Below are positions 128 to 57,068 of a stretch of DNA of 57,068 nt, one piece after another. The translations under genes were made by a program, and so were the position numbers. The stretch is from IMG/VR virus record IMGVR_UViG_3300046536_000466, positions 1 to 57,068 of that record, one strand, 5' to 3'. Position 1 is the stretch's first letter; every line of letters starts with the position of its first letter. This DNA is from a virus. Below the pieces are notes generated by a model. The model was given only the letters and a program-made list of their open reading frames with translations. It did no database searches and was not told the origin of the DNA.

Positions 128-169
128 CGTCGTCTCAGGCCACGGCTCGGTGGTGGGCTGCTGGCTCAT
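1..169 (-). CDS. Small Cys/His protein, N-terminal part (gene crosses the circular joint)
   Basis: The ATG lies at 167-169 and its first base overlaps the TGA of the upstream 65-codon gene (ATGA). The frame runs off the left end and continues at 56941 and below. The joined protein is about 94 residues. This part holds the start (MSQQPTTEPWPETTIARYL) and a CSGEHCSW cysteine pair. The layout, a Cys pair followed by a His/Cys pair near the C terminus, suggests a small metal-binding protein of the kind found beside Streptomyces plasmid transfer genes. Function unknown. Confidence 0.8.
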   Translation of the reverse strand, partial: MSQQPTTEPWPETTIARYLTVAGAHVDIWYDTGTLRTRCSGEHCSWTVHKSTRVFY

Positions 170-363
170 GCCGCTGCCGCCGCGAGGTTCTGGTCGGCGA
201 GCTGCCACAGCTCCCGGGCGCGGGTCTCGTTGCCCGCTGCTTCGGCGTCGGCCGCGGCGTTGGCGTAGAGGAGGCCGGCGAGGCGGGTGAGCTGGTCGGC
301 CTCGGCGAGCGCGTCCGCGCTGGGGGTGGGCTGCTGGTGGGGCTGGTGGGTAGCGTGTCCCAT
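166..363 (-). CDS. Small helical hypothetical protein, first gene of the tra/spd operon
   Basis: 65 codons, ATG at 363, Ala-rich and helical (ALAEADQLTRLAGLLYANAA), no membrane segment. Its stop overlaps the start of the next gene in an ATGA. It is the first gene of the leftward operon that, across the circular joint, leads to SpdB2-like and TraB-like genes. It faces the plus-strand HTH gene at 531 across a 167-bp promoter region. Function unknown. Confidence 0.72.
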   Translation of the reverse strand: MGHATHQPHQQPTPSADALAEADQLTRLAGLLYANAAADAEAAGNETRARELWQLADQNLAAAAA

Positions 364-530: not shown

Positions 531-824
531 GTGACCGAGGAGGCGCAGCGGGTGTTCGATGCCATCGACGCGCTGAAGGAGATCGCGGACCCAGCCGAGA
601 GAGCGCGCGCCTTGGGCGAGGTGCTGAAGGCGCTGCCGGGTCAGAACAAGTCGCTCAAGGAGGCGCGGCAAGAGGCGGTGCAGGAGCTGCTCGCGCGGCC
701 GGGTGCGTCGCTGCGCACCGTGGGCGCCGACTTGGACGTCAGCTTCAGCACGGTGCAGGACATCGTGAAGGGCTACTCGGGGTCGGGGAAGAACCGGCCG
801 AGGGTGAAGAAGGCAGAGGAGTAG
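531..824 (+). CDS. Small helix-turn-helix DNA-binding protein
   Basis: 97 codons, GTG start with the purine-rich stretch AAGAGAAGGGG upstream. The N-terminal half is a charged helix (RARALGEVLKALPGQNKSLKEARQ). The C-terminal part, about residues 55-80, reads as a sigma-4/resolvase-like HTH (GASLRTVGADLDVSFSTVQDIVKGY). It resembles in plan the two other small regulators at 10498 and 51778. It heads a four-gene plus-strand operon and probably regulates the divergent promoter that also serves the tra/spd operon. Target unproven. Confidence 0.7.
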   Translation: MTEEAQRVFDAIDALKEIADPAERARALGEVLKALPGQNKSLKEARQEAVQELLARPGASLRTVGADLDVSFSTVQDIVKGYSGSGKNRPRVKKAEE

Positions 825-6961: not shown

Positions 6962-7689
6962 TGGGCCTCGGTCTCGCGGAGTTGGCTCTGGAATGCCTCC
7001 ATCTGGGCGCGTTCCTCGGGCGTGAGCTGGCCGAGGTAGGCGGCGGCGGCTTCTTTGCGGGCGGTGATCTGGTCGGTGTCTTCGCGGGGCAGGTCGTGGG
7101 CGTCGCGTGCTGCGCGGCGGCGTGCGGCGTGGGCGACGGTGCGGGGGCTGCCGTTGCTGCGGCAGTGGCGTCCGAGGGGCGCCTGGCAGGCAGGGCAGGC
7201 GACGGTGAGCGGGCCGACGCGTACCGGCCGGCGGGTGCCGGTGGTGTCGTCGCCGGGTACGTCGTGTCCGACGGCGGTGAGTTCACGCATCAGCCGCGGG
7301 TCCGGGGTGCCGGGGCCGAGGGCGCGGAGCCCGGTGTCCGGTCCGATACGGCCGTCGGCGAGGGCAGCGGTGCGGGCGCGGAGCCGGTTGAGGTACTGCT
7401 GCGGGGTTTCGTCGGGGTCGCCGTCGTAGCGGAGGTTGGCGACGCGTTCGCGGCGGGCCCGCTTCGCGATGTCGATCAGGTCAACGGCCGTGACCCGGAA
7501 GCGGTCCTGCGGCTGGCGGGCTGCCATCTCCTGGTAGAAGGCGGTCAGCGCGGTCTCGGCGTCGGTGCGGGTGAGTCCGGCGGCGGAGAGGTCGGCTTGC
7601 CAGGCGAGGATGTCGGCGCGTCCGACGGTGCGTTGGTCGCGGGCGGCGGCGAGGCCGAGGAGTGTTGAGGCGTCTTCGAAGGTGATCAC
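6958..7689 (-). CDS. Early protein with C-terminal zinc ribbon, adjacent to the replication initiator
   Basis: 243 codons, GTG at 7689 in a GTGA overlap. The N-terminal half is helical (VITFEDASTLLGLAAARDQR, LSAAGLTRTDAETALTAFYQ), as in proteins that accompany phage replication initiators. At about residue 165 there is CPACQAPLGRHCRSNGSPRT, a CxxC...C ribbon related to the next gene. Position directly after the initiator suggests a helicase-loader-like or accessory role, but no ATPase motif is visible. Function inferred only from context. Confidence 0.68.
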   Translation of the reverse strand: MITFEDASTLLGLAAARDQRTVGRADILAWQADLSAAGLTRTDAETALTAFYQEMAARQPQDRFRVTAVDLIDIAKRARRERVANLRYDGDPDETPQQYLNRLRARTAALADGRIGPDTGLRALGPGTPDPRLMRELTAVGHDVPGDDTTGTRRPVRVGPLTVACPACQAPLGRHCRSNGSPRTVAHAARRRAARDAHDLPREDTDQITARKEAAAAYLGQLTPEERAQMEAFQSQLRETEAQ

Positions 7690-8549
7690 TGGGCCTCCCG
7701 GTGTGCGGCGGCTTGAGCTGCGTCGTGTTCGGCTTGCATCTGGCGGCCGAGGTCGAGGGCGGCCTGGACGCGGGCGTCGGTGGTGGAGGGGCGGGGTTGG
7801 GCGAAGGGCACGACGTTGGTGCTGGGGCGGTTGGCGCGCTCGGACGCGAACTTCGCGGAGCGGCGGATCCACTTCTGCCATTCGGTCGGCCAGTTGGGGC
7901 GGCGGACGTTTTGGGCGCGGAAGTGGTCGACGAACTGGGCGGTCTCGTAGTCGAGGTCGAGGCCGGGGCCGAAGGTGCGCAGCGCCCATCCGCGCATCGG
8001 GTCGGTGAGCTCGAAGCCGGCTGTCTCGATCGGGGTGAGGCCGTCAGGCTCCGGCGCGCGGCGACCGCGCGGGGCCACGTTCGGACGGTCCTCAGCCCCC
8101 TCCTTTTGTGTTCCTTCTGGTGTCTCTGTGTTAACTGCGTTATGGGGTACGGATTGTGGACCCCTACCGGTACGGATTCCGGACCCCCCCGGTACGGATT
8201 CCGCACCCCCCGGGGTCTTCTTTTCTGACCGGTACGGATTCCGTACCGGTACGGAATCCGTACCCCCCTTGCGGGTGTGGCCCTTGGCGCAGGGAAGCCT
8301 GTAGCGGGTCTCTCCGTGCGGTCCCGTGACGCCCAAGACGATCTCCAGTTCACCGAGATCGAGGAGGGTGTCGACGGCCTTGATGACGGCGGTGCGGGAC
8401 GCGTTGGACCGTCGCATCAGGAAGGTGCTTCCGGCGTACGCGGAGACGTCGGGTCCGCTCGCCTTGTCAGCGATGGCGAGGAGCACGAGGCGTGCCGTGT
8501 TCTTGGAAGCGGAGTGCTCCCATACCCAGTCCTGCGCGTCGAGGCTCAA
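7686..8549 (-). CDS. Probable replication initiator with internal iterons
   Basis: 287 codons from a TTG at 8549, preceded by GAGAAGGACCG. Residues 1-85 look like a winged helix (NTARLVLLAIADKASGPDVS, SRTAVIKAVDTLLDLGELEI), as in phage replisome organisers. The C-terminal part (WPTEWQKWIRRSAKF) has the Trp-rich helix found in DnaT/replisome organiser-like proteins. The linker between them, about residues 95-135, is Pro/Gly-rich and its DNA carries the repeated GGTACGGATTCCG iterons. This is the same arrangement as lambda O, where the origin lies in the initiator gene. Initiator function is inferred; no search was made. Confidence 0.75.
   Translation of the reverse strand: MSLDAQDWVWEHSASKNTARLVLLAIADKASGPDVSAYAGSTFLMRRSNASRTAVIKAVDTLLDLGELEIVLGVTGPHGETRYRLPCAKGHTRKGGTDSVPVRNPYRSEKKTPGGAESVPGGSGIRTGRGPQSVPHNAVNTETPEGTQKEGAEDRPNVAPRGRRAPEPDGLTPIETAGFELTDPMRGWALRTFGPGLDLDYETAQFVDHFRAQNVRRPNWPTEWQKWIRRSAKFASERANRPSTNVVPFAQPRPSTTDARVQAALDLGRQMQAEHDAAQAAAHREAQ
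8101..8270. repeat. Iteron cluster, candidate replication origin
   Basis: Copies of GGTACGGATTCCG (allowing small changes) begin at 8146, 8169, 8191, 8231 and 8248. The first three are spaced 23 and 22 bases apart, about two helical turns. The 8231-8247 copy and the 8248-8264 copy are each near-palindromic and abut. Bases 8101-8145 just beside them are clearly richer in A/T than the surroundings and could be the unwinding element. Lies wholly inside the initiator gene at 7686. Confidence 0.72.
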
Positions 8550-21924: not shown

Positions 21925-22003
21925 GCAATCCACACGCGGAGGCCCGGCGGTAGGGGTGCCTGCCGGCCCATCCGCAGTCCAACTCACAACCCCGGGGGGG
22001 CGC

Positions 22004-23377
22004 ATGCCTTCTGTGGAGAACCGCGGCAACAGCATCCGCGTGAAGTGGTGGGGCGGCGAGTACCGACTCGACGACGACGGCCAGCCAACCAAGAAGAAGA
22101 AGTACGAGCAGGCATCCGGCCCCGAGCCGGGCATCCCGTTCGAGAGCGAGCAACAGGCCGTCGAGTACGGGCTCGACCGGGAATCCGAAGTCCGCAACGG
22201 CAAGTACCGGCCGAAGACTGCCGACATGAACATGGCCGAGTACAGCGATCTGTGGTTCTCCACCATCGACCTGGCCGCCCGGTCGAACGACAAGTACGAG
22301 TCGATCCTCAAAGCCGTCATCAAGCCGTACTGGCGCACCTGGACCGTCGGCCAGGTCACGCCCGTCGACTGCGACCTGTTTCGAGCCCACCTCAAGAGGC
22401 GCTACTCGGAGAGCTACAAGAACAGCGTCATGTCCGTCTTCCGGATGCTGATGACCGACGCCGTCCTCAAGTACAAACTGCGCGACGAGTCGCCGATCAT
22501 TGAGCAACGCGGGCGCGGTCGATACGAGAAGAAGCAGACCCGCCGTGTCAAGGGCGAGCTGCCCATCGAGGCTGTGCACCAGCTGGCCGTCAACGCCTAC
22601 CACGTGTGGGGCTACGCAGGCTGGGTGTACATCTGGACCATCGCCTTCACCGGTATGCGTCCGCCCGGTGAAATCCAGGGCATGCAGCGCGGGTTCACGT
22701 CCGTCCACTGGCCGGCCGCCGACCCGGACCGCGATCGGCGCCGAGAAGCCGAGAAACGCTACGACGGAATGTACGTCCTGCGGGTGCAGTACCAGACGTA
22801 TTACGCGGCCGGCAAGCAGGTGCTGGCGCTGCCGAAGTACGACAGCTACAGGTCTCTCGTGATTCCGCCATTCCTGCATGACCTGCATGAACAGCTGCTC
22901 GTTTCCCATGACAAGCCGTGGCTGTTCGTCTCCCCCATGGGCAAGAACCTGCTGGGCGTGGGGTTCACGAAGAACTACTGGTACCCCATCAGGGACGGCA
23001 GGAAAGAGCACGAACCGCGGGCCGGATTCGAGCGGTACGCGAAGTGCGCGCTGCCGGCGGTGGAGGACATGGCAGGACAGGACATCTACCGGCTGAGGCA
23101 CTGGCACAAGGCTTTGCTGGACGAGCCGGGGGCCGATGTTGCGACGGTGGCAAAGGAGGCCCGCATGGGGCATGAGATGCCCGGCATGGAGGGCGTGTAC
23201 AGCGAGGTGACACTCTCGATGGAGAAGCGGATCGTGAAGTACCTTCAGGAGGTGTGGGAGAAGCAGGTCGTGTCGGCGGGGTTGTGGATGCCGCCGTTTC
23301 CCACCCGTCTCCCAGATGATCTTCTGGGTGGTTCGTCTTCGCTGTTCAGCGAGCTTCCCTCTTTTGCCCTTCACTGA
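22004..23377 (+). CDS. int: Tyrosine site-specific integrase
   Basis: 457 codons with ATG at 22004; a GTG at 21956 in frame would add 16 residues. Residues 70-160 are an N-terminal SAM-like core-binding domain (MAEYSDLWFSTIDLAARSND). The catalytic domain shows Arg219 in TGMRPPGEIQ, the box-II Arg365 in IYRLRHWHK (the usual first His of HxxR is Tyr here), His390 in MGHEMPG and the nucleophile Tyr399 in GVYSEV. It should integrate the circle into the host chromosome at a tRNA or other site. The attachment site is probably in the noncoding region just downstream. Confidence 0.93.
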   Translation: MPSVENRGNSIRVKWWGGEYRLDDDGQPTKKKKYEQASGPEPGIPFESEQQAVEYGLDRESEVRNGKYRPKTADMNMAEYSDLWFSTIDLAARSNDKYESILKAVIKPYWRTWTVGQVTPVDCDLFRAHLKRRYSESYKNSVMSVFRMLMTDAVLKYKLRDESPIIEQRGRGRYEKKQTRRVKGELPIEAVHQLAVNAYHVWGYAGWVYIWTIAFTGMRPPGEIQGMQRGFTSVHWPAADPDRDRRREAEKRYDGMYVLRVQYQTYYAAGKQVLALPKYDSYRSLVIPPFLHDLHEQLLVSHDKPWLFVSPMGKNLLGVGFTKNYWYPIRDGRKEHEPRAGFERYAKCALPAVEDMAGQDIYRLRHWHKALLDEPGADVATVAKEARMGHEMPGMEGVYSEVTLSMEKRIVKYLQEVWEKQVVSAGLWMPPFPTRLPDDLLGGSSSLFSELPSFALH

Positions 23378-43362: not shown

Positions 43363-44721
43363 TTACGCGGCGAGCTCGATGAAGGGGGAGAGCTTGTTCG
43401 TGGAGCCGTTCTGGGGGGTGATCGCGGACTGGATCCACGGGCGGCCGTCGACGCGCTGGATGATCCGGAACGTGGTCTTGTCGGAGCCGAACTGGTAGTC
43501 CGTCGAGGAGTCGGCGGTCATGATCTGCCGGTCGCCCAGCAGGTAGTAGGAGAGGTCGACGAACGCGAGGTCGCCGCGGGAGCCGAGGGCGCCCGCCTTC
43601 TCCGTGATGATCAGCGGCCGGCCGAAAATGGTCATCGGCATGCCCGCGGCGGCGTTGACGACGAACACGCTGTTGCCGCCGGTGCCGACGGTGAGGCTCA
43701 TCTGGAGGAGCTGGGGGATGGCGTCGGGGGAGCACATCCACACGGCGCGCGACAGGCTGGAGGGCAGCATCTGCGCGAACATGTTGACGATGTCCGGGTA
43801 CTTGATCAGGTTGGTGGTGGTGCGGGCGACGGCGATCGCGGCAGGGTTCCCGGCGCCGCGGAAGCCGAGGGGTTCGCCGACTCCGCTGCCGGTCTGGCAC
43901 TTCGCGTCCTCCTCGAACGCGAGGGCCTGCGGCCACAGCGTCTCGATGAGCGCGGAGAACGAGGTGATGGAGTCCTGGAGCAGCTCGTTCGGGACGGCGC
44001 TGAGGCCGGTGAGCTTCTTCGCGTCGAGCGTGACCCGGCCGAACTTGGGGCTGGAGTCGGTGAGGGCTGCGCCTTCCTCACCCCAGTAGGCGACCATGCC
44101 GCCGAAGACGCTGCCGTTGTTGGTGGTGGTGTCGATCATCGGGAACGGAACCCGCGCCGACTCCATCGGCACGACCGTGGCGAGCGGCCGCACCACGGAC
44201 TGCTCCAGAGCAAGCTGAAGGAGCTGGCTCCGCAGGGTCTCCGGGACGAGGAACCCGCCGTCGGCCGGGCTGACGCTGCTCGCAGCGTTGCGGAGCGCGG
44301 CCAGCTTGTCGCCGTCGGCCTGCGGGTTCTTGTGCCAGATGTTGCGCACGTAGTCGATCGAGTTCTCGAAGTGCTTGTCGACCTGCGCGCCGGCTGCGGT
44401 CGCGTTGTAGGCGGTGCCCTGCCGGTGGGAGGTGAGCATCCCGCTGCCGCGCTTGGCCTGCGGGTCGAGGTCGAGACGCTTGATCCCGTCCTTCGCGTCG
44501 TTCATGCCGTTCTCGCGCATCATCTGCGCGAAGACGCGCTGCGTCTCCTCGGCCACCAGCCGGTTCAGGTCGGTGCCCTCGCCCTGGAGCGCGGTGCCGT
44601 AGGCGGTGATGAACTCTGTCAGGGACTCTCGCGAGGCCATGACCTCCTTCAGCTTCGCGCCGTCGGCGAGCATCTCCGCCAGTTCGTCGGCGTTGCGCGG
44701 GATGGTCATCGTGGGTGCCAC
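43363..44721 (-). CDS. Major capsid protein, HK97 fold
   Basis: 452 codons, GTG at 44721 with GAAGGAGG five bases before, the best ribosome site in the head module. The N-terminal 110 residues are a helical delta-like domain (ADELAEMLADGAKLKEVMAS, LVAEETQRVFAQMMRENGMN). The HK97 core starts at about VSPADGGFLVPETLRSQLLQ, includes NELLQDSITSFSALIETLWP and GEPLGFRG, and ends IQSAITPQNGSTNKLSPFIE. Located after the protease and portal genes. Confidence 0.93.
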   Translation of the reverse strand: MAPTMTIPRNADELAEMLADGAKLKEVMASRESLTEFITAYGTALQGEGTDLNRLVAEETQRVFAQMMRENGMNDAKDGIKRLDLDPQAKRGSGMLTSHRQGTAYNATAAGAQVDKHFENSIDYVRNIWHKNPQADGDKLAALRNAASSVSPADGGFLVPETLRSQLLQLALEQSVVRPLATVVPMESARVPFPMIDTTTNNGSVFGGMVAYWGEEGAALTDSSPKFGRVTLDAKKLTGLSAVPNELLQDSITSFSALIETLWPQALAFEEDAKCQTGSGVGEPLGFRGAGNPAAIAVARTTTNLIKYPDIVNMFAQMLPSSLSRAVWMCSPDAIPQLLQMSLTVGTGGNSVFVVNAAAGMPMTIFGRPLIITEKAGALGSRGDLAFVDLSYYLLGDRQIMTADSSTDYQFGSDKTTFRIIQRVDGRPWIQSAITPQNGSTNKLSPFIELAA

Positions 44722-44732
44722 AGTTGCCTCCT

Positions 44733-45830
44733 TCAGGCCGTCGCCGCGCTGGACGACGTGTCGGGCTCGATCAGGTTGGAGACGAGCGCCGACCATGCGT
44801 CTGCGTCGTCGGGGATGAGGGCGGCGACCATGGCCGTCCAGTCGTTGGCGGGTTCCGGCTGGGTGCCGGGCTCCGCGGGTTCGATGAGGTCGGCCGCGGC
44901 CACAGGCTCGGCCGGGACGTCAGGTTCTGTAGCGGGCTCCGGAGTGGCGACGGGCTGCGGTTCGGACTCGGCGTTCTTCGTCCGGACCATGGCGCGGAGG
45001 GCCTCGACCATCTGCTCGTCGAGGGCGTCGCCGATGTTGATGACGAGCGTCGACTGCGCCTCGTCGGCCGCTGGCGGGGGCTTCGGCGCTTCCGCCTTGG
45101 CCGGGCCGGTGTAGCCGTAGGCGGTGAGGTCGAACTCCTTGCGCATCTCCGGCTCCGCCTCGTCCGCGCCTGGTTCGACCGGCTCGGTCACAGGCTCGCC
45201 ACGCTTCGGAACAGAGACCGCCTCGTCCGCAAGCCCGGCCGTGACCGCGTCGTCGGGCAGGTACCAGGTCTCCGCGCGCATCTGCTCACGCCACTGCTCC
45301 CGGGTGCCGCCTGCCCGTGCGGCGTAAGCGTCCGCGATGTTGTCTGAGATGAGGTCGAGGAGTTCGCCCATCTCCCCCATGTCTGCGGCGTTGCCCATGC
45401 ACAGACCGGACGCCTCGTGGATCATGAGCATGGTGTTCGGGGCCATCTCGATCCGGTCCCCGGCCATCGCGATGACGGAGGCGATCGATGCCGCGATCCC
45501 GTCGACCTGAATCGTGACGCTCGCGGGGTGGGAGCGCAGCGCGTTGGCGATCGCGATGCCCTCGAACACCGACCCGCCAGGCGAGTTGATGCGCACCCGT
45601 AGGTTCGGGGACGTGATGCCGCGAAGATCGGCGATCATCTGATCGGCGGTGCAGCCCCACCATCCGCCCACCTCGTCGTACAGCATCAGTTCGGCTTCGT
45701 CCGGGTCTGCCGCGTTGGTGATGCGATACCAGGACCGGGCCTCCACGCCGAGGTACGCGCGCTGCTTCTCCGCCTGCTCGCGCTGGCTGGCCATGAAGGT
45801 GGCCGCCTTGCTGGGCAGCGTGATGTTCAT
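44733..45830 (-). CDS. ClpP-type head maturation protease with scaffold-like tail
   Basis: 365 codons, ATG at 45830. VRINSPGGSVFEGIAIANAL, the Ser in DGIAASIASVIAMAGDRIEM and the His in MLMIHEASGLCMGNAADMGE are the ClpP-family catalytic features. Residues 225-365 are acidic and Pro-rich (PVTEPVEPGADEAEPEMRKE), with helical parts, as in protease-scaffold fusions. It would process the capsid shell during assembly. Confidence 0.9.
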   Translation of the reverse strand: MNITLPSKAATFMASQREQAEKQRAYLGVEARSWYRITNAADPDEAELMLYDEVGGWWGCTADQMIADLRGITSPNLRVRINSPGGSVFEGIAIANALRSHPASVTIQVDGIAASIASVIAMAGDRIEMAPNTMLMIHEASGLCMGNAADMGEMGELLDLISDNIADAYAARAGGTREQWREQMRAETWYLPDDAVTAGLADEAVSVPKRGEPVTEPVEPGADEAEPEMRKEFDLTAYGYTGPAKAEAPKPPPAADEAQSTLVINIGDALDEQMVEALRAMVRTKNAESEPQPVATPEPATEPDVPAEPVAAADLIEPAEPGTQPEPANDWTAMVAALIPDDADAWSALVSNLIEPDTSSSAATA

Positions 45831-47326
45831 GAGCCCTCTCCCTTACGGCCGCGCTTCACGACACGGCAGCGGCACTCGTTGCCGTGTGCTGCGCCCTCGC
45901 AGTGCACGTAGCCGGAGCCGCCGGGGTAGTCCTCGTAGGCCTGCTGCCGGTTCTTGTACGTCCGGTCTGCGTTGTCGGCACACGGCTGGCAGACGTTGTC
46001 GTCGCCTGCGGTTTCGACCTCCCACCGCTGCGCGTTCTCAACGTCTCCGCCGGTCAGCCTGGCTACGGCCTGCGCCCACGACGCGTCAGGCTCCGTCGGC
46101 ACAGCGGGGATCGCTGGGGTGCCGCGGAATGCGATCTCCGGCAGGCCGACAGCAGAGAGGACACCCTTGGGTTCGAAGCCTGCGGAGACGAGTGCCTGCG
46201 CAGCATTGGCCTGTGCGGTGAGCTGCTTCGACTCCATCTCGACGTCCCCGGTGACGGGGTCCTCGAAGTCGAACTCCAAACCCTGGCCTGTGGCGCCGAA
46301 CATCGGCAGCAGGCGAGTGTTGAGGACTTCGCGGGTGCGTTGCAGGCGGACGCGGATCAGCCACTTTGCGAAGATCGCCTCGGCCGACTCCATGTTGGCC
46401 CTGTTGGCGTCATCCACCGTGCCCAGCATGGGTTTCGGGAAACCGAAGGCCTCGCGGATGATCTCGCGGGATGCGTTGCGGAGTTCCGCGAACTGCATGT
46501 CCGCCATGCTGTAACTGCGGTCGACCCAGGTCAGGCCGTTCTCCAGAACCGCGACCCTGTGCGCGTTGGAGACGCCGCGGTGCTGCTCGTTCCACCGGTC
46601 CCGGAACTCATTGAACTCCTCGTCAGACAGGCGCTGATCGGCCTGAACGATCCCACCGGGCTGCGCCGAGTTACGGAAGAACTGCGCGTTCCACTCGGCG
46701 GATGCGCGCGCGGAGTCGAGGTCGGCGAGCAGCGTCTGCACCGGACCCCACCCGCGGTACGGATCCAGGGGATTGGGGCGGCGGAGCATGATGACGTCGT
46801 CCAGGCCGAGCGGGACCTGCTCACCGGTCGGCGACGAGTACCTGTACCCGGACAGGAAAGTGTCCCGGTCGGGTACCGGAACCATCCGGTCGGGGCGGGC
46901 GAACCAGAGTTCCAGCGGGATGCTGCTGCGCTCGTGGCGGGCGGTGATCCACCACTGTTCGCCGGTCAGTTCCTCGTGCTGCTGCGTCGCTTCGCGCCAC
47001 TGCGGGCCGGTCATGAACGGGTTCGGCTGGTTCCACAGGTCGAGGGCTGCGTGGGAGGTGACTTCTTTGCGGTCCTCGTCGCGGCCGCTCTTGGCGCTGC
47101 GGTAGAGGTGCCATTCGACCTGGCTGTAGGCGGTGGTGATCCGCTCCACGATGGCGAAGAGGGTCCCGACGCTGCCCATGGCCCGCATCTGGGCTTCCTG
47201 GCCGGCGGGTCGGACGATGCTGGAGATGAGGCCGCTGCGCCCGCCGGATGGGGCGAGGGCGATCGGTGAGCGGTTGGTGAAGGTGGCGGTGGCTTTGCCG
47301 AGGGCTCCGAAGAGGGTCCTGCCCAC
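45827..47326 (-). CDS. Portal protein with MuF-like C-terminal domain
   Basis: 499 codons, GTG at 47326. The portal core (AIVERITTAYSQVEWHLYRS, HAALDLWNQPNPFMTGPQWR, REIIREAFGFPKPMLGTVDD, FAKWLIRVRLQRTREVLNTR) is typical of HK97-type siphophages. After residue 440 there is VCQPCADNADRTYKNRQQA, YPGGSGYVHCEGAAHGNECR: the Cys/His end of the MuF/phage minor head domain, normally a separate gene. So portal and minor head protein appear fused. Confidence 0.92.
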   Translation of the reverse strand: MGRTLFGALGKATATFTNRSPIALAPSGGRSGLISSIVRPAGQEAQMRAMGSVGTLFAIVERITTAYSQVEWHLYRSAKSGRDEDRKEVTSHAALDLWNQPNPFMTGPQWREATQQHEELTGEQWWITARHERSSIPLELWFARPDRMVPVPDRDTFLSGYRYSSPTGEQVPLGLDDVIMLRRPNPLDPYRGWGPVQTLLADLDSARASAEWNAQFFRNSAQPGGIVQADQRLSDEEFNEFRDRWNEQHRGVSNAHRVAVLENGLTWVDRSYSMADMQFAELRNASREIIREAFGFPKPMLGTVDDANRANMESAEAIFAKWLIRVRLQRTREVLNTRLLPMFGATGQGLEFDFEDPVTGDVEMESKQLTAQANAAQALVSAGFEPKGVLSAVGLPEIAFRGTPAIPAVPTEPDASWAQAVARLTGGDVENAQRWEVETAGDDNVCQPCADNADRTYKNRQQAYEDYPGGSGYVHCEGAAHGNECRCRVVKRGRKGEGS

Positions 47327-47344
47327 CGGCCACCCCCTTCACGG

Positions 47345-47506
47345 TTAGTCGCTGTCGAGCACCCACTGGAGTACGCAGGTGAGGACTCCTCCAGCGATGA
47401 GACCAACGCCCATACCGAAGATATTCCAGCATCCTGCTGTGATGAGTGTAAATCCTCCTGTCAAGAGAGTCGCTGGCCGCAAATCTTTCAGCTTCTTGGG
47501 GTTCAC
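47345..47506 (-). CDS. Very small membrane protein between portal and terminase
   Basis: 53 codons, GTG at 47506 preceded by GAGGAAGGGTCAC, TAA at 47345-47347. VNPKKLKDLRPATLLTGGFT, then LITAGCWNIFGMGVGLIAGG: basic N terminus and two hydrophobic runs. Fills exactly the gap between the terminase and portal genes. Function unknown. Confidence 0.68.
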   Translation of the reverse strand: MNPKKLKDLRPATLLTGGFTLITAGCWNIFGMGVGLIAGGVLTCVLQWVLDSD

Positions 47507-47517
47507 GTGACCCTTCC

Positions 47518-48912
47518 TCATCCGACGAACCTCACCCGCGGCCGACCAACGAGATCCCGCTCCGCGACCATGTAGCGCAGCGCGTCCATCGCGTGGTCGT
47601 TCTCCTTCAGCGGTTCTTCCTTCAAGCCACCCTTGTTGCCCGGGCGCACGGCCCAGACGTAGCCGGTGATCTCTTCCGCCGCCTCCATAGGGCGCGCAGC
47701 CTCCTCAAGCTCCGGATCTCGCTCAATGAGGGAGTCGCGGCAGATGAACAGGCGCGGCTTGCCGTCCCCCTGGACCTTCAGACGGGACTGCACCGCTTGG
47801 ATCCCGTCCGATACCGACTTCTTCGCGGGGATGGTGGACATGCCGAGGTGACGCTCCAGCGTGGCCCGGTCCTCCGCATCGTGGTCACAGATCACCGCGC
47901 GCGGCTGCGGCTCCGTCCACTCCATCCGACACGTCTTGCAATCGTGGCAGTCATGGTCGCTGGCCTTCGACTTGCAGCACTCCACGCACTGCGTGACCAG
48001 GCGCAACATGTGCTTCGCGTGGTCTTCGACCAGGCGGCGAGTTCGATACACCTGCCTGTACAGATACAGCCGGCCGTCCCCGTCTTCGGCCCACCACAGG
48101 GCGGCGAAAGGTGCGGTGTACCCGAAGTCGATGGAGAGCCACCTGGTCCACCCGGCGGGGATGTTGATCGGGTCGATGAGGTGAACGGTGGGGTCGAAGT
48201 TCTCGTAGACCTGGCCTTCAGCCGCAACCCATTGACCATGACGCAGTCGTTTGAACCGGACGCCTGTGAGTGCGTCGAGCTTGTTGATGTAGTCCTTGCC
48301 GCGCTCGGTCAGGGTGCCGTCGGCGTTGTACAGGACGGGATTGTCCTCATGGCGGCACTTGATCATCTTTGTGCGGCCGCCGATGCAGCGTTGGTGCAGC
48401 CAATGATCGGGCTTGTCCGGGTTGCAGTCGGCGATCAGTTGTTGGAACGAGATGACGCCGTTGCGCAAGCGGGTGGTGATGTTCTCCCAGTCCGTGGTGG
48501 TCAGCTCGATGGCTTCCTGCACGTAAACCGCGTCGTACTCCGAGGACATGATCTTGGTCGGCTTGTCCATCCCGCCGATCATGATCCGTGAACCGTTCGA
48601 GTACCGATACTGCGGCGGCTCCTCCGCCGATCCTCCGTAGAACGAAACGATCCCGGTGGCCAGCGCCTCCTTTGCCACATGCTCTCGGTACGTGACCAGC
48701 GCCGTGGACCCGAGAGACTCGCGGGTCTTGCGGACGATGAGCCCGCGCATTCCCTTGTTGGCGAGCGCCATGAGGTGCAGCTTCTCCAGGCACGCCCGGC
48801 TCTTCCCCGTGCCTGCCGGCCCGCTCAGGAGCACCTCGGGGGCGCGGCACCGCATCAACTCCAGCGCCGCGCCCCAAGGCTCGTACCGATGGACTGTCTC
48901 ACTCACGCGCAT
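47518..48912 (-). CDS. terL: Terminase large subunit with Cys-rich insertion
   Basis: 464 codons, ATG at 48912. ATPase: Walker A GPAGTGKS (residues 31-38), Walker B-like YDAVYVQEAIE (126-136), coupling SFQQLIADCNPD. Nuclease: Asp262 in SIDFGYTAPF, Asp343 in ICDHDAEDRA, and NDHAMDALRY near residue 448. An insertion at about 309-328 has five Cys and two His (CVECCKSKASDHDCHDCKTC), a likely zinc site not usual in the family. Cleaves and pumps DNA into the head. Confidence 0.93.
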   Translation of the reverse strand: MRVSETVHRYEPWGAALELMRCRAPEVLLSGPAGTGKSRACLEKLHLMALANKGMRGLIVRKTRESLGSTALVTYREHVAKEALATGIVSFYGGSAEEPPQYRYSNGSRIMIGGMDKPTKIMSSEYDAVYVQEAIELTTTDWENITTRLRNGVISFQQLIADCNPDKPDHWLHQRCIGGRTKMIKCRHEDNPVLYNADGTLTERGKDYINKLDALTGVRFKRLRHGQWVAAEGQVYENFDPTVHLIDPINIPAGWTRWLSIDFGYTAPFAALWWAEDGDGRLYLYRQVYRTRRLVEDHAKHMLRLVTQCVECCKSKASDHDCHDCKTCRMEWTEPQPRAVICDHDAEDRATLERHLGMSTIPAKKSVSDGIQAVQSRLKVQGDGKPRLFICRDSLIERDPELEEAARPMEAAEEITGYVWAVRPGNKGGLKEEPLKENDHAMDALRYMVAERDLVGRPRVRFVG

Positions 48913-53078: not shown

Positions 53079-53414
53079 TCACGGCTCAGTCGGACACGAC
53101 GCCGGATCGTCCGTGCACGCCTTGAACGACGCCTGCGCCCGCCGGTTTCGCTTGCTCAGCCCCGCCATGTACGCATCGAGTTGGGCACTGTCCGCCAGTC
53201 CCTTGCACACTGACGGCGTGTCGTCCGAGCTGGCTCCCGCGTCGATCGCGTCCGCCCATGCGTTCACGCACGCGGCCCGCTGCTGAGTGGCGGACAGTGC
53301 GGGTGTCTTCGTGACCGTGATGGTCGGCGTCGGCTTGTCGTCGCTGCTGCTGCTCCCGCATCCGGTGAGCAGCAGTCCGGCGGTGAGCAGTAGTGCGGTG
53401 GTGGTGTGGCGCAT
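53079..53414 (-). CDS. Secreted lipoprotein
   Basis: 111 codons, ATG at 53414. MRHTTTALLLTAGLLLTGCG has an N-terminal positive charge, hydrophobic core and the lipobox LLTGC with the lipidated Cys at residue 19. It is followed by a Ser/Asp/Thr-rich linker and a small domain with CVNAWADAIDAG, SVCKGLADSA, CTDDPASC. In phages such proteins may block superinfection; in conjugative elements they may act in entry exclusion. Which of the two is not decided. Confidence 0.78.
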   Translation of the reverse strand: MRHTTTALLLTAGLLLTGCGSSSSDDKPTPTITVTKTPALSATQQRAACVNAWADAIDAGASSDDTPSVCKGLADSAQLDAYMAGLSKRNRRAQASFKACTDDPASCPTEP

Positions 53415-53479
53415 GGTCCCCCCAGGACAGTGTGTGGCGGGGATGCTAGCGCCGGCCACCGACAGGGACGCCCGGAACG

Positions 53480-53580
53480 CGGGAAACAGCCACCCGAACG
53501 GGGTCCCCAACCGGGTCCAACGCAGCGCCCGCGACGGGACCCTGACACGGCAACGCCGGGACCCCGAACGGGACCCCCGC
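53480..53580. repeat. GC-rich repeats between lipoprotein and traB
   Basis: CGGGACCC occurs at 53535, 53557 and 53569, and GGGTCC in the opposite sense at 53501 and 53513. CCGAACGGG also occurs twice (53494 and 53565). These lie in the intergenic region just after the traB stop. They could be TraB recognition repeats (clt-like) or terminator hairpins. Confidence 0.5.
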
Positions 53581-53603: not shown

Positions 53604-55370
53604 TCACCCATCCAGGGAGACAGATACCGCCTGCGCCTCCCACGCGCTCTGAGGAACCAGACGCCACGTCCCCGCGTCCGTCCGTTCCACGTCCGGCTTC
53701 AGCCCGTCGAGGGCCTTCAGCACCTGCCGCTCCTCCAGCCCGGTCGCCTGCTCCAACTCCCGGCGGGTCACGTTGCCGTACTTGGCGAGCGCGTTGCGGA
53801 CCTTCTCCTGCTGAGTGCCGCCGGCCGCGGGGAGGATGAGCCGCTTCCCCACCGGGGCCTTCGCCGTCTCCCGGGCCAGGCGGGCGACCTCGCGGCGGAA
53901 GTCCTCGCCGCGCAGCCACTGCACCCGGGACCGGAACGGCCGCGCGTAGTCGGGGGTGTTGACGAGGATCTCGCCGGGCTTGGTGAGGTCGCCGGGGTTG
54001 TAGCCGGAGGCGCGCCCGAACACGAACATGGCGTGAGCCCGGTCGTTCATGCGGGTGCTGATCCGGTTGGCGTAGTTCCCGCGGGCGTCGGTCTTCCCGC
54101 CGAACACCCCGGACGACGGCTGCTGCGTCGCGGAGATCATGTGAATGCCATACGCCCTGTTCAAAGCGAGGAACGACTCCACCTTGTCCGAGATCCGCTC
54201 GCCCTTCTTCCGCCCCTTGTCGCCCTGCCGCACCAACTCGGCATGCTCGTCGACGATGACGTACACCGCGGGCCGGCCGTGCCGGGCGGGGATCCACTCC
54301 TGGGCCTCGTCCTCAGCCAGGATGGCGCCGCGCTCGTCCAGCTCCTGCCGCATCCAGTCCATCAGCGCGTGCGCCTCCTCGGGGGTGGAGGCGAGATCTT
54401 GCAGGATGGGCCGCATCGGGGAGAGCTCGGGACTGCCGGGCTTCATGTCCACCCCGTACAGGACAGTGTCCGGACGCCCGGCGAGACGGATCGCGAGCAG
54501 CCTGACCAGCGTCGACTTACCGAACTTGCTGGATCCGGCGATCAGGGTGTGGGAGTAGGCCATCTCGATCGCGACGGGCTGTCCGAACTCGTCCCGGGAC
54601 ACGACGACCGGGTCGAGAAACGTGGCGCCACGCTCCGACTCGTAAGGCACCGCCGTGTCGAGGGGGTCGCCGTCGACGTAGTTCACCACCAACTGGCTGG
54701 TGAGCGGCCCGTCGTCGAGGTGGAACGCCCCGTCGACACGCAGCGCTCCGGCCACCTTCGGCCAGCGAGTGCGCAGCGTGGCCCGGTCGAGGGACGCGGG
54801 GCAGTCGATGACGGCCCGCCAGCCGACGTCCGTGGCCTCGATGAGGCACCCGGCGAGCTCCGTCTTCAGCGTCTCCCACACGGCGGTGCGGAGCTGCTGC
54901 TCCTCGACGGTGCGTCCGGACAGGTCCGGACCGGCCGGGACAAGGTCCGGGACGGTGAGCTTGGCGAGCTGCTGCTGCCGGATCTGCTGGCCGACAAGCG
55001 CCGTCTGGAGCTTCACGGCCTCCATGTTCAGGCGCATGTCGTCGTGGCGGGTGTGGTGCTTGTACACCAGGCGGGCAGCGACAGCGGTGGCCGCGGAGAC
55101 CAGCCACGCGAAGGCGGTGGGCCCGACGCCTCCGACGGTGGTGACGCCTGCCTGCGTGAACGCGCCGGCCATCGCGAGGGCGCCCCAGGACAGTGGCGGT
55201 GACCACTTGCGGGCGAAGCTGACGAAGGCGAGCTTCCCGGTGGCCAGGGCGGTGACGAACTCGGCGACGGCGGCGTGGGTTCCGTACTGCCATTCGGCGA
55301 TGAGGGCGGCCCCGGTGACGATGCTGGGGACGGTGAGGCTGGTGGCGATGTCGGCGCGGCTGACCTTCAC
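53604..55370 (-). CDS. traB: TraB-like FtsK/SpoIIIE DNA translocase
   Basis: 588 codons, GTG at 55370. Two N-terminal hydrophobic segments (residues 10-28 and 62-102) anchor it in the membrane. Walker A GSSKFGKST (279-287), Walker B VYVIVDEHAEL (369-379), then NRAYGIHMISATQQP and NRISTRMNDRAHAMFVFGRA, all as in Streptomyces TraB/FtsK. The C terminus (519-572, QQEKVRNALAKYGNVTRREL, EQATGLEERQVLKALDGLKP) is a winged helix, like the gamma domain that reads clt repeats. It should pump double-stranded DNA across a membrane or septum. Confidence 0.92.
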   Translation of the reverse strand: MKVSRADIATSLTVPSIVTGAALIAEWQYGTHAAVAEFVTALATGKLAFVSFARKWSPPLSWGALAMAGAFTQAGVTTVGGVGPTAFAWLVSAATAVAARLVYKHHTRHDDMRLNMEAVKLQTALVGQQIRQQQLAKLTVPDLVPAGPDLSGRTVEEQQLRTAVWETLKTELAGCLIEATDVGWRAVIDCPASLDRATLRTRWPKVAGALRVDGAFHLDDGPLTSQLVVNYVDGDPLDTAVPYESERGATFLDPVVVSRDEFGQPVAIEMAYSHTLIAGSSKFGKSTLVRLLAIRLAGRPDTVLYGVDMKPGSPELSPMRPILQDLASTPEEAHALMDWMRQELDERGAILAEDEAQEWIPARHGRPAVYVIVDEHAELVRQGDKGRKKGERISDKVESFLALNRAYGIHMISATQQPSSGVFGGKTDARGNYANRISTRMNDRAHAMFVFGRASGYNPGDLTKPGEILVNTPDYARPFRSRVQWLRGEDFRREVARLARETAKAPVGKRLILPAAGGTQQEKVRNALAKYGNVTRRELEQATGLEERQVLKALDGLKPDVERTDAGTWRLVPQSAWEAQAVSVSLDG

Positions 55371-55694
55371 TGGCTGGCTCCGGAGACGGCGCGGCCCCCG
55401 CTGGTGGGCGGGGGCCAGGGCGGGCGGCTTACAGGTACTGGCCGCGCTGGGCGATGCGGCGGACGCTGTCCTGGTTGAGGTCGGGGCGCAGCCGGGCGGC
55501 TTCCTGGAGGAGGAGGTCCTCGCGGATGCCTTGGGCTGCGAGGGAGCGGACGAGTTCGGACGGGCCGGCCGCCTTGTCCGCGATCTCCTTGAGCGGGTCC
55601 GGACGCTCGTCCGGGCTGGTCGCGGGCTCTTCTGTGTCGTCTTCGGGCTCGTCGTCCGGATCGGCGTCCGGACGCCCGGACAGGGTGTCCGGAC
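54468..55694. repeat. Cluster of GTCCGGAC octamers in the traB/spdB2 region
   Basis: Exact GTCCGGAC occurs at 54468, 54914, 54924, 55597, 55666 and 55687, with one-base variants between and after them (54945, 55654, 55708). At roughly 70% GC about 0.05 exact copies are expected per 1.2 kb. Part of the density comes from repeated Pro-Asp codons in the coding sequence. Confidence 0.6.
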
Positions 55695-56346
55695 TGTCCT
55701 GGACAACGTCCGGCAGCGTGGGGTGGCGGGCTTCCAGGGCGAGGCGGAGACGGACGGTTCGGTCCGCGGTGAGCATCCGGTCCCGCTCGCCGAGCGCGAG
55801 GGCCTGTTCGGTCCCGGCCTGCTGCTGCAGGGTGCGGAGGTACGCCTCGTACTTCGGGTCAAGCTTGATCCGGATGGTGTGCATGCCGATCGCCCACACG
55901 CCCTTCGCCGCGGCGGAGACGAGCGCGCCGACGATGCCGACGAGGAGCGCGTCGTGGCGGTGCCCGTCGAGGATGATCGCGGTCATCGACACGGCGAGCA
56001 TCGCGACGCCGGCCTTCACGGGGATGTCGGCGCGCTTGCTGTCGTAGCGGAGGATCCACTCGGCGATCAGGCAGGCGGCCCATCCTGCGTCGAAGACTCC
56101 GGCGACGAGGTACGCGGCCCATGCGGGGGCGAGGAGGGCGAGCATGCCGCCGATGGCGACGGTGCCCCAGACGATGGCGACGGCGGTCATGGCGACGGCG
56201 AACGCGAAGAGGATGCGGCGCAGCATCGAGTCGAGGTTGAACGGGAGCCGCGGCATCGGGGTGGTGTCGGGCACGTCGTACTCGACGGGCACGCCGTGGA
56301 CGACCTCGGTCACGGTGCGGGTCGGGCGGTGGAACGGGCGGGCCAT
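55429..56346 (-). CDS. SpdB2-like membrane spread protein
   Basis: 305 codons, ATG at 56346. Four hydrophobic segments between residues 40 and 150 (LRRILFAFAVAMTAVAIVWG, AIGGMLALLAPAWAAYLVAG, AGVAMLAVSMTAIILDGHR, LLVGIVGALVSAAAKGVWAI). They are followed by a helical cytoplasmic domain, an acidic linker rich in PD (PDTLSGRPDADPDDEPEDD) and a C-terminal helix. This plan fits SpdB2-type proteins of Streptomyces plasmids, which help DNA spread across septa. Lies directly upstream of traB, 58 bases apart. Confidence 0.8.
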   Translation of the reverse strand: MARPFHRPTRTVTEVVHGVPVEYDVPDTTPMPRLPFNLDSMLRRILFAFAVAMTAVAIVWGTVAIGGMLALLAPAWAAYLVAGVFDAGWAACLIAEWILRYDSKRADIPVKAGVAMLAVSMTAIILDGHRHDALLVGIVGALVSAAAKGVWAIGMHTIRIKLDPKYEAYLRTLQQQAGTEQALALGERDRMLTADRTVRLRLALEARHPTLPDVVQDSPDTLSGRPDADPDDEPEDDTEEPATSPDERPDPLKEIADKAAGPSELVRSLAAQGIREDLLLQEAARLRPDLNQDSVRRIAQRGQYL

Positions 56347-56369
56347 GGCGGTTGCCTCCGGGGTGGCGG

Positions 56370-56612
56370 TCAGGCGTGGGCGGTATGCGGGCGGTGGGTG
56401 CGGATCTGATGCGCGACGTAGGCGGCGCCGGCGAGGAGGGCGGCTGCTCCGGGGTGGGCTGCGGCTCCGTCGGCTGCGCCTTGGACGATGGCGAGGAGCA
56501 GTTCGATGCCGATCTGGACCAGGTGCTCGGTGGCGTGCTGGTTCATGGCGGCGAGGATGATCAGGCTGGTGATGAGCAGGTTGCGGAGCAGGTGGTTGGG
56601 GCGGCGTGCCAT
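56370..56612 (-). CDS. Small membrane protein of the spd operon
   Basis: 80 codons, ATG at 56612. Residues 8-22 (LLRNLLITSLIILAAMNQ) are one membrane segment, followed by an Ala-rich stretch (GAAALLAGAAYVAHQIRTH) that could be a second. Fits the small Spd proteins next to SpdB in Streptomyces plasmids and integrative elements. Confidence 0.7.
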   Translation of the reverse strand: MARRPNHLLRNLLITSLIILAAMNQHATEHLVQIGIELLLAIVQGAADGAAAHPGAAALLAGAAYVAHQIRTHRPHTAHA

Positions 56613-56679: not shown

Positions 56680-56826
56680 TTACTGCTGGTCGTCGCTGCT
56701 CGCGTCGGCGTGGGCTTGCATGAGCGCGGCCTCGACGTCGCCGCCGGGGACTTCGCCGCGTTCGATCTGCGCGTACACCTGTTCCGCCGCCAGGAAGAAG
56801 CGGTCCTGGAAGTTCGGCTCGCTCAT
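56680..56826 (-). CDS. Very small acidic helical protein of the spd operon
   Basis: 48 codons, ATG at 56826 overlapping the stop of the gene that crosses the joint (ATGA). MSEPNFQDRFFLAAEQVYAQ, then IERGEVPGGDVEAALMQAH. No cysteine. Probably a soluble component or regulator of the spread operon. Confidence 0.68.
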   Translation of the reverse strand: MSEPNFQDRFFLAAEQVYAQIERGEVPGGDVEAALMQAHADASSDDQQ

Positions 56827-57068
56827 GCGGTCGCCGCCGGTCGGGGCATCGCGCGGCACTTCTCCGCGTGGGACTGGGCGTCGGGCTGGAGCGCGGGGAC
56901 AGCGGCGGCGATCTTCTCGTCGCGCTCCTCGGCGGAGTCGGTGTAGAAGACGCGGGTCGACTTGTGCACGGTCCAGGAGCAGTGCTCGCCGCTGCACCGG
57001 GTGCGGAGGGTGCCGGTGTCGTACCAGATGTCGACGTGGGCGCCTGCGACGGTGAGGTAGCGGGCGAT
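56823..57068 (-). CDS. Small Cys/His protein, C-terminal part (gene crosses the circular joint)
   Basis: This is the 3' part of the gene that starts at 169. It contains the CSGEHCSW pair inside the duplicated 127 bp and ends with AQSHAEKCRAMPRPAATA; HxxxC with the earlier Cys pair could bind zinc. The TGA at 56823-56825 overlaps the ATG of the next gene (ATGA). Position at the head of the spd/tra operon suggests a role there, but no function can be assigned. Confidence 0.8.
   Translation of the reverse strand: MARYLTVAGAHVDIWYDTGTLRTRCSGEHCSWTVHKSTRVFYTDSAEERDEKIAAAVPALQPDAQSHAEKCRAMPRPAATA
56942..57068. repeat. Terminal direct repeat, right copy (circular overlap)
   Basis: Exact copy of bases 1-127. 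Removing one copy gives a circle of about 56,941 bp. The base after 57068 corresponds to base 128. Confidence 0.93.

Follow-up and report, generated by a model that had tools for sequence, protein, structure and literature searches.

Streptomyces plasmids move between hyphae by means of a Tra pump, with Spd proteins helping in the passage of septa, and this is the model for the mechanism considered here (PMC4170104). In pWTY27 the proven clt locus comprises 16 bp of the tra gene (traA) and the 159 bp that follow, and TraA binds its 7-bp repeats, some direct and some inverted (PMC3583192); the same source has the TraB protein of pSVH1 reading 8-bp repeats through alpha-3 of its winged helix. 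Here we analyse a viral DNA of 57,068 nucleotides (the window), positions 1 to 57,068 of the IMG/VR record IMGVR_UViG_3300046536_000466, which carries a TraB-like translocase, a SpdB-like protein and a clt-like element. We put at roughly 0.63 the probability that these form a complete Streptomyces-type, single-protein transfer module for double-stranded DNA, housed in a family of temperate siphophages that integrate. The observed basis for this reading is homology, anatomy, conservation, phage context, co-variation of the TraB helix with the repeats, and purifying selection on traB. The features that carry it are the following.

53604 to 55370, minus strand: traB, an FtsK/SpoIIIE-type DNA translocase of 588 amino acids with a GTG start
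55429 to 56346, minus strand: spdB-like gene, 305 amino acids, with four transmembrane helices, a coiled tail and a variable C-terminal domain
53500 to 53578, minus strand: clt-like element directly 3' of traB, with fixed geometry in 23 family members

Like the systems of pSVH1, pIJ101 and pWTY27, the window combines an FtsK-like motor, which has a membrane N-terminus and a C-terminal winged helix, with a SpdB-like four-helix membrane partner and small spd-type genes, and as in pWTY27 a repeat-rich element lies directly 3' of the tra gene. Unlike them, it carries the module on a virion-forming integrative phage, with remote sequence and a different repeat motif, and its spd gene is upstream of traB, whereas that of pIJ101 is downstream of tra. 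The original prediction suspected that the general idea might not be new, and rightly so: the Streptomyces plasmid-phages pZL12 and pFP4 are described as propagating, conjugating and forming infective particles (PMC4170104). Transfer of pZL12 requires a major tra gene and two adjacent genes (PMC3583192). This element is extrachromosomal, with ParAB and a gene annotated as 'Tra3-like', whereas the window family integrates; no FtsK domain was found in the three adjacent pZL12 genes tested. The Streptococcus prophage Phi1207.3 is reported to be capable of conjugal transfer (PMC4260502), but its host has no septate mycelium, unlike the Streptomyces of the window's phage family. Actinomycete integrative and conjugative elements (AICEs) of the pSAM2 type share with the window an integrase, TraB and SpdB2/DUF2637-like genes; they differ in having a Rep and no virion genes, and their TraB belongs to another clade. 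FtsK-like genes have already been annotated in Streptomyces phages (PMC11536984). Our search of open-access papers, with subscription papers lying outside it, turned up no account of a family of integrating phages in which TraB, clt and Spd form a matched set.

The 588-residue FtsK/SpoIIIE-type TraB announced from 53604 on was correct in position and length, and it scores 52 bits against Pfam FtsK_SpoIIIE, for which the cut-off is 24. The protein consists of an N-terminal membrane part, a motor at about residues 200-490 and a C-terminal winged helix at 519-572, whose recognition helix spans 546-555. Both Walker motifs, A (GSSKFGKST) and B (DE), are unchanged over 19 family members, and the ratio of nonsynonymous to synonymous substitution (dN/dS) of traB against close relatives is 0.17-0.25, which indicates purifying selection. 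By sequence, the closest solved relative in the PDB is the pCW3 conjugation protein TcpA; by fold, the matches are FtsK motors and TcpA, from a low-confidence model. The full-length model is poor (pLDDT, the predicted local distance difference test, 46), while the winged helix was modelled at about 70-86.

We scored profiles of the TraB and Spd families against a set of 1542 open reading frames. The TraB profile gave 174-224 bits with Gilgamesh-type phage(-plasmid) translocases, 117 with Mischief19, 56-79 with plasmid TraB, 46-67 with AICE TraB and 30-32 with chromosomal FtsK. In a maximum-likelihood tree the window family joins the Gilgamesh-type proteins and small-plasmid Tra, including that of pIJ101, although its exact sister group is uncertain, the branches being long; the AICE clade takes in one AICE-like plasmid Tra. 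Chromosomal FtsK and mycobacteriophage FtsK split from the window family at 97/94. Judged by these sequence comparisons, the motor resembles plasmid Tra more closely than it does chromosomal FtsK. The best NCBIfam match was plasmid TraB in 19 of 19 members, yet far under its cut-off, and on its sequence we class the window protein as TraB-like, outside the NF041214 equivalog. Grouping with chromosomal FtsK or with packaging motors, the outcome by which the original prediction proposed to be judged, did not occur. An origin from chromosomal FtsK was rejected on profile scores and tree, and one from a packaging motor because a separate terminase is present and the PHROG terminase match reaches only 20 bits.

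The nearest TraB group, that of Gilgamesh and Streptomyces phage-plasmids of about 130 kb, has a similar PSxKVFGGxTD motif. Unlike the window's family, these are different and much larger phages, with major capsid proteins at 65-90% within the group; no SpdB homologue and no comparable clt repeats were seen beside their traB. Streptomyces 'plasmids' of this size with a TraB-like gene include NZ_CP108441, NZ_CP122459, NZ_CP070374, NZ_CP107821 and CP108533. They are among the best plasmid matches of TraB, and because their major capsid proteins are of the Gilgamesh type (65-90%), they are phage-plasmids; the three looked up in PLSDB are typed there as non-mobilizable.

Directly 3' of traB, direct copies of GGTCCC lie at 53575-53570, 53563-53558 and 53541-53536 (spacings 12 and 22), and inverted copies at 53518-53513 and 53507-53502. 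Candidate clt repeats had been predicted without coordinates; a convincing element exists, just outside the range originally given for the module. Repeat scans missed it, and it was found by aligning the relatives' DNA 3' of traB. All 23 members have direct repeats at start spacings of 12 and 22 bp, followed by one or two inverted repeats, usually 11-12 bp apart. Counted over the entire window, GGGTCCC has 7 + 5 occurrences, and a four-copy cluster as dense as the element's own arose in 2 of 200 shuffles. This is the direct- and inverted-repeat anatomy of a clt with its cognate TraB, and the element may act in cis. Because clt-like anatomy and a matching TraB occur together, the transfer module looks complete and under selection.

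The motif GACCCGGA, which we take to be that of pSVH1, was tried as the repeat and discarded, being scattered over the window without a cluster at traB. A dense 8-mer scan of the whole genome brought out only the replication iterons at 8146-8255. A conserved TGCCACACTGG box stands about 110-170 bases 3' of traB in L012, L030, L036, L037, L040 and others; it adjoins the far side of the clt-like element in both repeat classes, sometimes with TTGACAG before it, and is possibly a promoter or regulator site.

The repeats fall into three classes, GGTCCC(C), GGTCGG(A) and GGGTGGA, as do the TraB winged helices (ERQVLKA..GLKP, EKQVLDAARAL and DKQVRDAAGAL), and the two classifications agree throughout: GGTCCC goes with helix type A (11/11), GGTCGG with type B (10/10) and GGGTGGA with B' (2/2). 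On a tree of the remaining TraB (motor domain) the helix class switches at least 5-6 times. The TraB proteins of the window (type A) and of L009 (type B) are 89% identical overall, yet both helix and repeats differ; the diverged TraB of L084, with a different C-terminus, comes with a different repeat, GGGTGCGAG. Over TraB residues 1-540 the mutual information with class is near zero, save for a single column within 121-140 that reaches 0.50. It peaks in helix 3 and the wing (548-566), together with tail residues 583-584, is nil in the variable leader DNA past the stop codon, and comes back only at the repeats. The modelled fold and this co-variation suggest that the C-terminal winged helix reads the short repeats.

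The element could instead be an operator or terminator, tied to the winged helix by physical linkage only, with the clt of TraB and Spd lying elsewhere. The codons of the winged helix-turn-helix do adjoin the repeats and could recombine jointly with them. However, linkage alone would likely mark the leader too, and the leader has no class signal; furthermore, all copies change together, the 12 and 22 bp spacings are held across classes, and several members have a separate terminator-like hairpin further 3'. We consider this explanation quite unlikely.

The other half of the module is the spd gene, whose product was originally called a four-pass SpdB2-like protein. The four passes stand, with transmembrane-length helices modelled at 36-69, 75-101, 103-130 and 134-161, and the Spd profile, built from 14 sequences, has pIJ101 SpdB as its sole match in the 1542 reading frames outside phages and one plasmid element (17 bits, E 3e-4); hhalign gives 87% over the transmembrane region. 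The relation is remote, though: DUF2637 was touched weakly by 3 of the 14 members, and profile-profile comparison with the AICE DUF2637 set gave no match. A fold search with the Spd model found nothing. On sequence, the protein is likely a remote member of SpdB.

Spd-like genes also occur in records without the family TraB, namely in phages SF3 and TurkishDelight and plasmid pSITFR-21c (L005:4914-6188, L006:4911-6131 and L008:5932-6984). In three phages with related terminases (L135:2661-4843, L138:3446-5360 and L145:2605-5216) a Spd-like gene occupies the same slot; behind it come genes for two or three further membrane proteins, of which the final one has a tail resembling a winged helix; an FtsK gene was not found in this slot, which by its gene content appears to hold an FtsK-less alternative module. 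Such relatives, together with SF3 and TurkishDelight, speak for a module that serves mainly superinfection exclusion, membrane-linked immunity or genome entry, with Spd as the effector. That account leaves the conserved motor, the clt-like element and the co-variation of helix and repeats unexplained, and we judge it very unlikely.

Scans of viral contigs with TraB and with Spd, confirmed by tblastn, gave 19 further contigs, in all of which TraB is 55-89% identical. In each of the 17 contigs where both genes were located, spd is the immediate upstream neighbour of traB, so their pairing is not due to chance; no Spd match was obtained from two records, G003 and G006. The TraB family is present in eight Streptomycetaceae genomes, four of which hold complete integrated prophages, bounded by direct repeats (attL/attR) of 18-99 bp that enclose 54.7-58.2 kb. 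Their gene order is that of the window: integrase, early genes, 95-amino-acid gene, spd, traB, terminase, portal, capsid, tail, lysis. Further contigs with the module have other portal, terminase and capsid families (PHROG 776/859/777; 38/104; 12/979), so that it is common to several phage types. What had been presented as a plasmid module inside one phage is long resident in a phage clade, where its place in the genome is conserved, and several types of phage carry it.

The virion and integration genes place the window itself.

43363 to 48912, minus strand: terminase large subunit, portal and HK97-type major capsid protein
21956 to 23377, plus strand: tyrosine integrase, by a PHROG_1 match, whose homologues sit at attL of integrated relatives

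An exact 127-bp end repeat marks the record as a circular contig, with a unit of 56,941 bp and 68.6% G+C. Terminase, portal, capsid and tail genes had been predicted on the same circle as traB, and profile matches bear this out (HK97-type portal, terminase, major capsid, head-tail adaptor, tape measure and major tail protein), as they do an endolysin and an O-like replication initiator. The predicted tyrosine integrase matches PHROG_1 only (61.8 bits), Pfam Phage_integrase staying below significance. No tRNA genes were found in the window. With head, tail, packaging, lysis and integration modules, and with integrated relatives that have att sites, the window is the circular genome of a temperate siphophage; a phage-plasmid would have maintenance genes and no integration, whereas the prophages related to the window are found integrated, between attL and attR. 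At 8146-8255, within the O-like initiator gene (7686-8549), GGTACGGA(TT) is present in five copies, which have the form of an iteron-type phage origin.

Homology to plasmid and AICE transfer genes could also be that of a decaying fragment of such an element, trapped in the prophage by recombination. Place and order are conserved in many phages, however, the reading frames are intact and under purifying selection, and the Prim-Pol Rep of AICEs is absent from the window by a search whose control worked, the initiator present being of the phage O-like type. This explanation is largely refuted and hardly credible, and an AICE remnant is ruled out by the conserved prophage context, purifying selection and Prim-Pol absence. 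A RepSA search of the window gave no match, its control also matching nowhere.

In the resident transfer module as we propose it, the C-terminal winged helix of TraB would bind the repeats immediately 3' of traB, and the protein would assemble as an FtsK-like ring anchored in the membrane. This ring would drive unprocessed double-stranded phage DNA across hyphal junctions, the cargo being the prophage after excision or the circle during replication. Passage of that DNA across septal cross-walls would be assisted by the SpdB-like membrane protein, together with the small proteins of the operon. We infer the DNA binding, the pumping, the identity of the cargo and the route (between colonies, along one mycelium or both, or as a spreading of replicating DNA in lytic growth), and the prophage 'able to move as DNA' of the original prediction may be taken in the same sense.

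Several points weigh against this proposal. TraB is remote from characterised TraB, with 30.4 bits against NCBIfam plasmid_TraB (NF041214), whose equivalog cut-off is 800. The winged-helix codons are only about 100-200 bp from the repeats, and shared recombination could feed the co-variation; the Fisher p of 2.8e-6 for A/B helix-repeat agreement is optimistic, the members being phylogenetically non-independent. Only 1 of 44 examined relatives of the window's terminase has TraB by profile (L173, diverged, 291 bits), and because most are without traB, the gene is dispensable for the virion cycle. Finally, TraB might serve the replication cycle of the phage, in dimer or concatemer handling, septal segregation or help to the tyrosine recombinase, with the repeats as loading sites resembling KOPS (FtsK-orienting polar sequences): it is homologous to FtsK, and FtsK loads at short polar repeats. 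A replication role has been guessed for the FtsK-like gene of a Streptomyces phage of another genus, Woodruffvirus (PMC11536984). Against such a role, the repeats form a single cluster beside traB and not genome-wide polar marks (4 of the 12 GGGTCCC are in the element), a SpdB-like gene is constantly associated, and TraB is distant from chromosomal FtsK. We regard it as unlikely.

A broader form of the transfer proposal, possible but rather doubtful, would make TraB, clt and Spd viral movement proteins and sites that pump phage DNA, free of virions, between hyphal compartments and into mating partners. The design would recur in several unrelated types of Streptomyces phage, possibly including a virulent Woodruffvirus, and diversifying TraB-clt specificities would separate co-resident elements. 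Mischief19 belongs to this genus, another member of which, Geonosis, is predicted to be virulent (PMC11536984). Directly downstream of the Mischief19 FtsK gene (L004:2075-2175) there are two kinds of repeat, inverted GGCCCA copies at an interval of 12 bp and direct copies resembling GGGCCAC at intervals of 11-12 bp, the mirror image of the clt-like geometry. As a single case, it leans weakly towards intramycelial spread.

The remaining genes of the operon and its neighbours are listed here.

166 to 363, minus strand: 65-amino-acid protein, first gene of the operon
56823 to 57068, minus strand: 95-amino-acid protein, whose gene spans the joint of the circle and starts, one turn on, at base 169
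56680 to 56826, minus strand: small operon protein of 48 amino acids
56370 to 56612, minus strand: small hydrophobic protein of 80 amino acids, an spd-type candidate, conserved directly upstream of spdB
531 to 824, plus strand: helix-turn-helix-like protein of 97 amino acids, facing the operon and kept beside the module in several relatives
53079 to 53417, minus strand: small lipoprotein gene, often just downstream of the clt-like element

The minus-strand operon runs from 363 through the circular joint to 53604, with genes for 65, 95, 48 and 80 amino acids and then the 305- and 588-residue proteins, its coordinates and lengths being as originally predicted. The 80-amino-acid protein is 54-75% identical across 10 contigs. 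From its sequence and position, the product of 531-824 is a candidate Kor-type regulator.

If the transfer reading is true, a whole group of chromosomal Streptomyces prophages would spread in two ways, by particles and, in the form of naked double-stranded DNA, through the mycelium. The host range of prophages, their immunity and superinfection would then have to be read differently in filamentous bacteria. Phage 'FtsK-like' genes that are now unexplained or assigned to replication would gain a testable function, and the family's naturally matched TraB and clt, with at least three specificities, would help in learning how an FtsK-type winged helix reads DNA.

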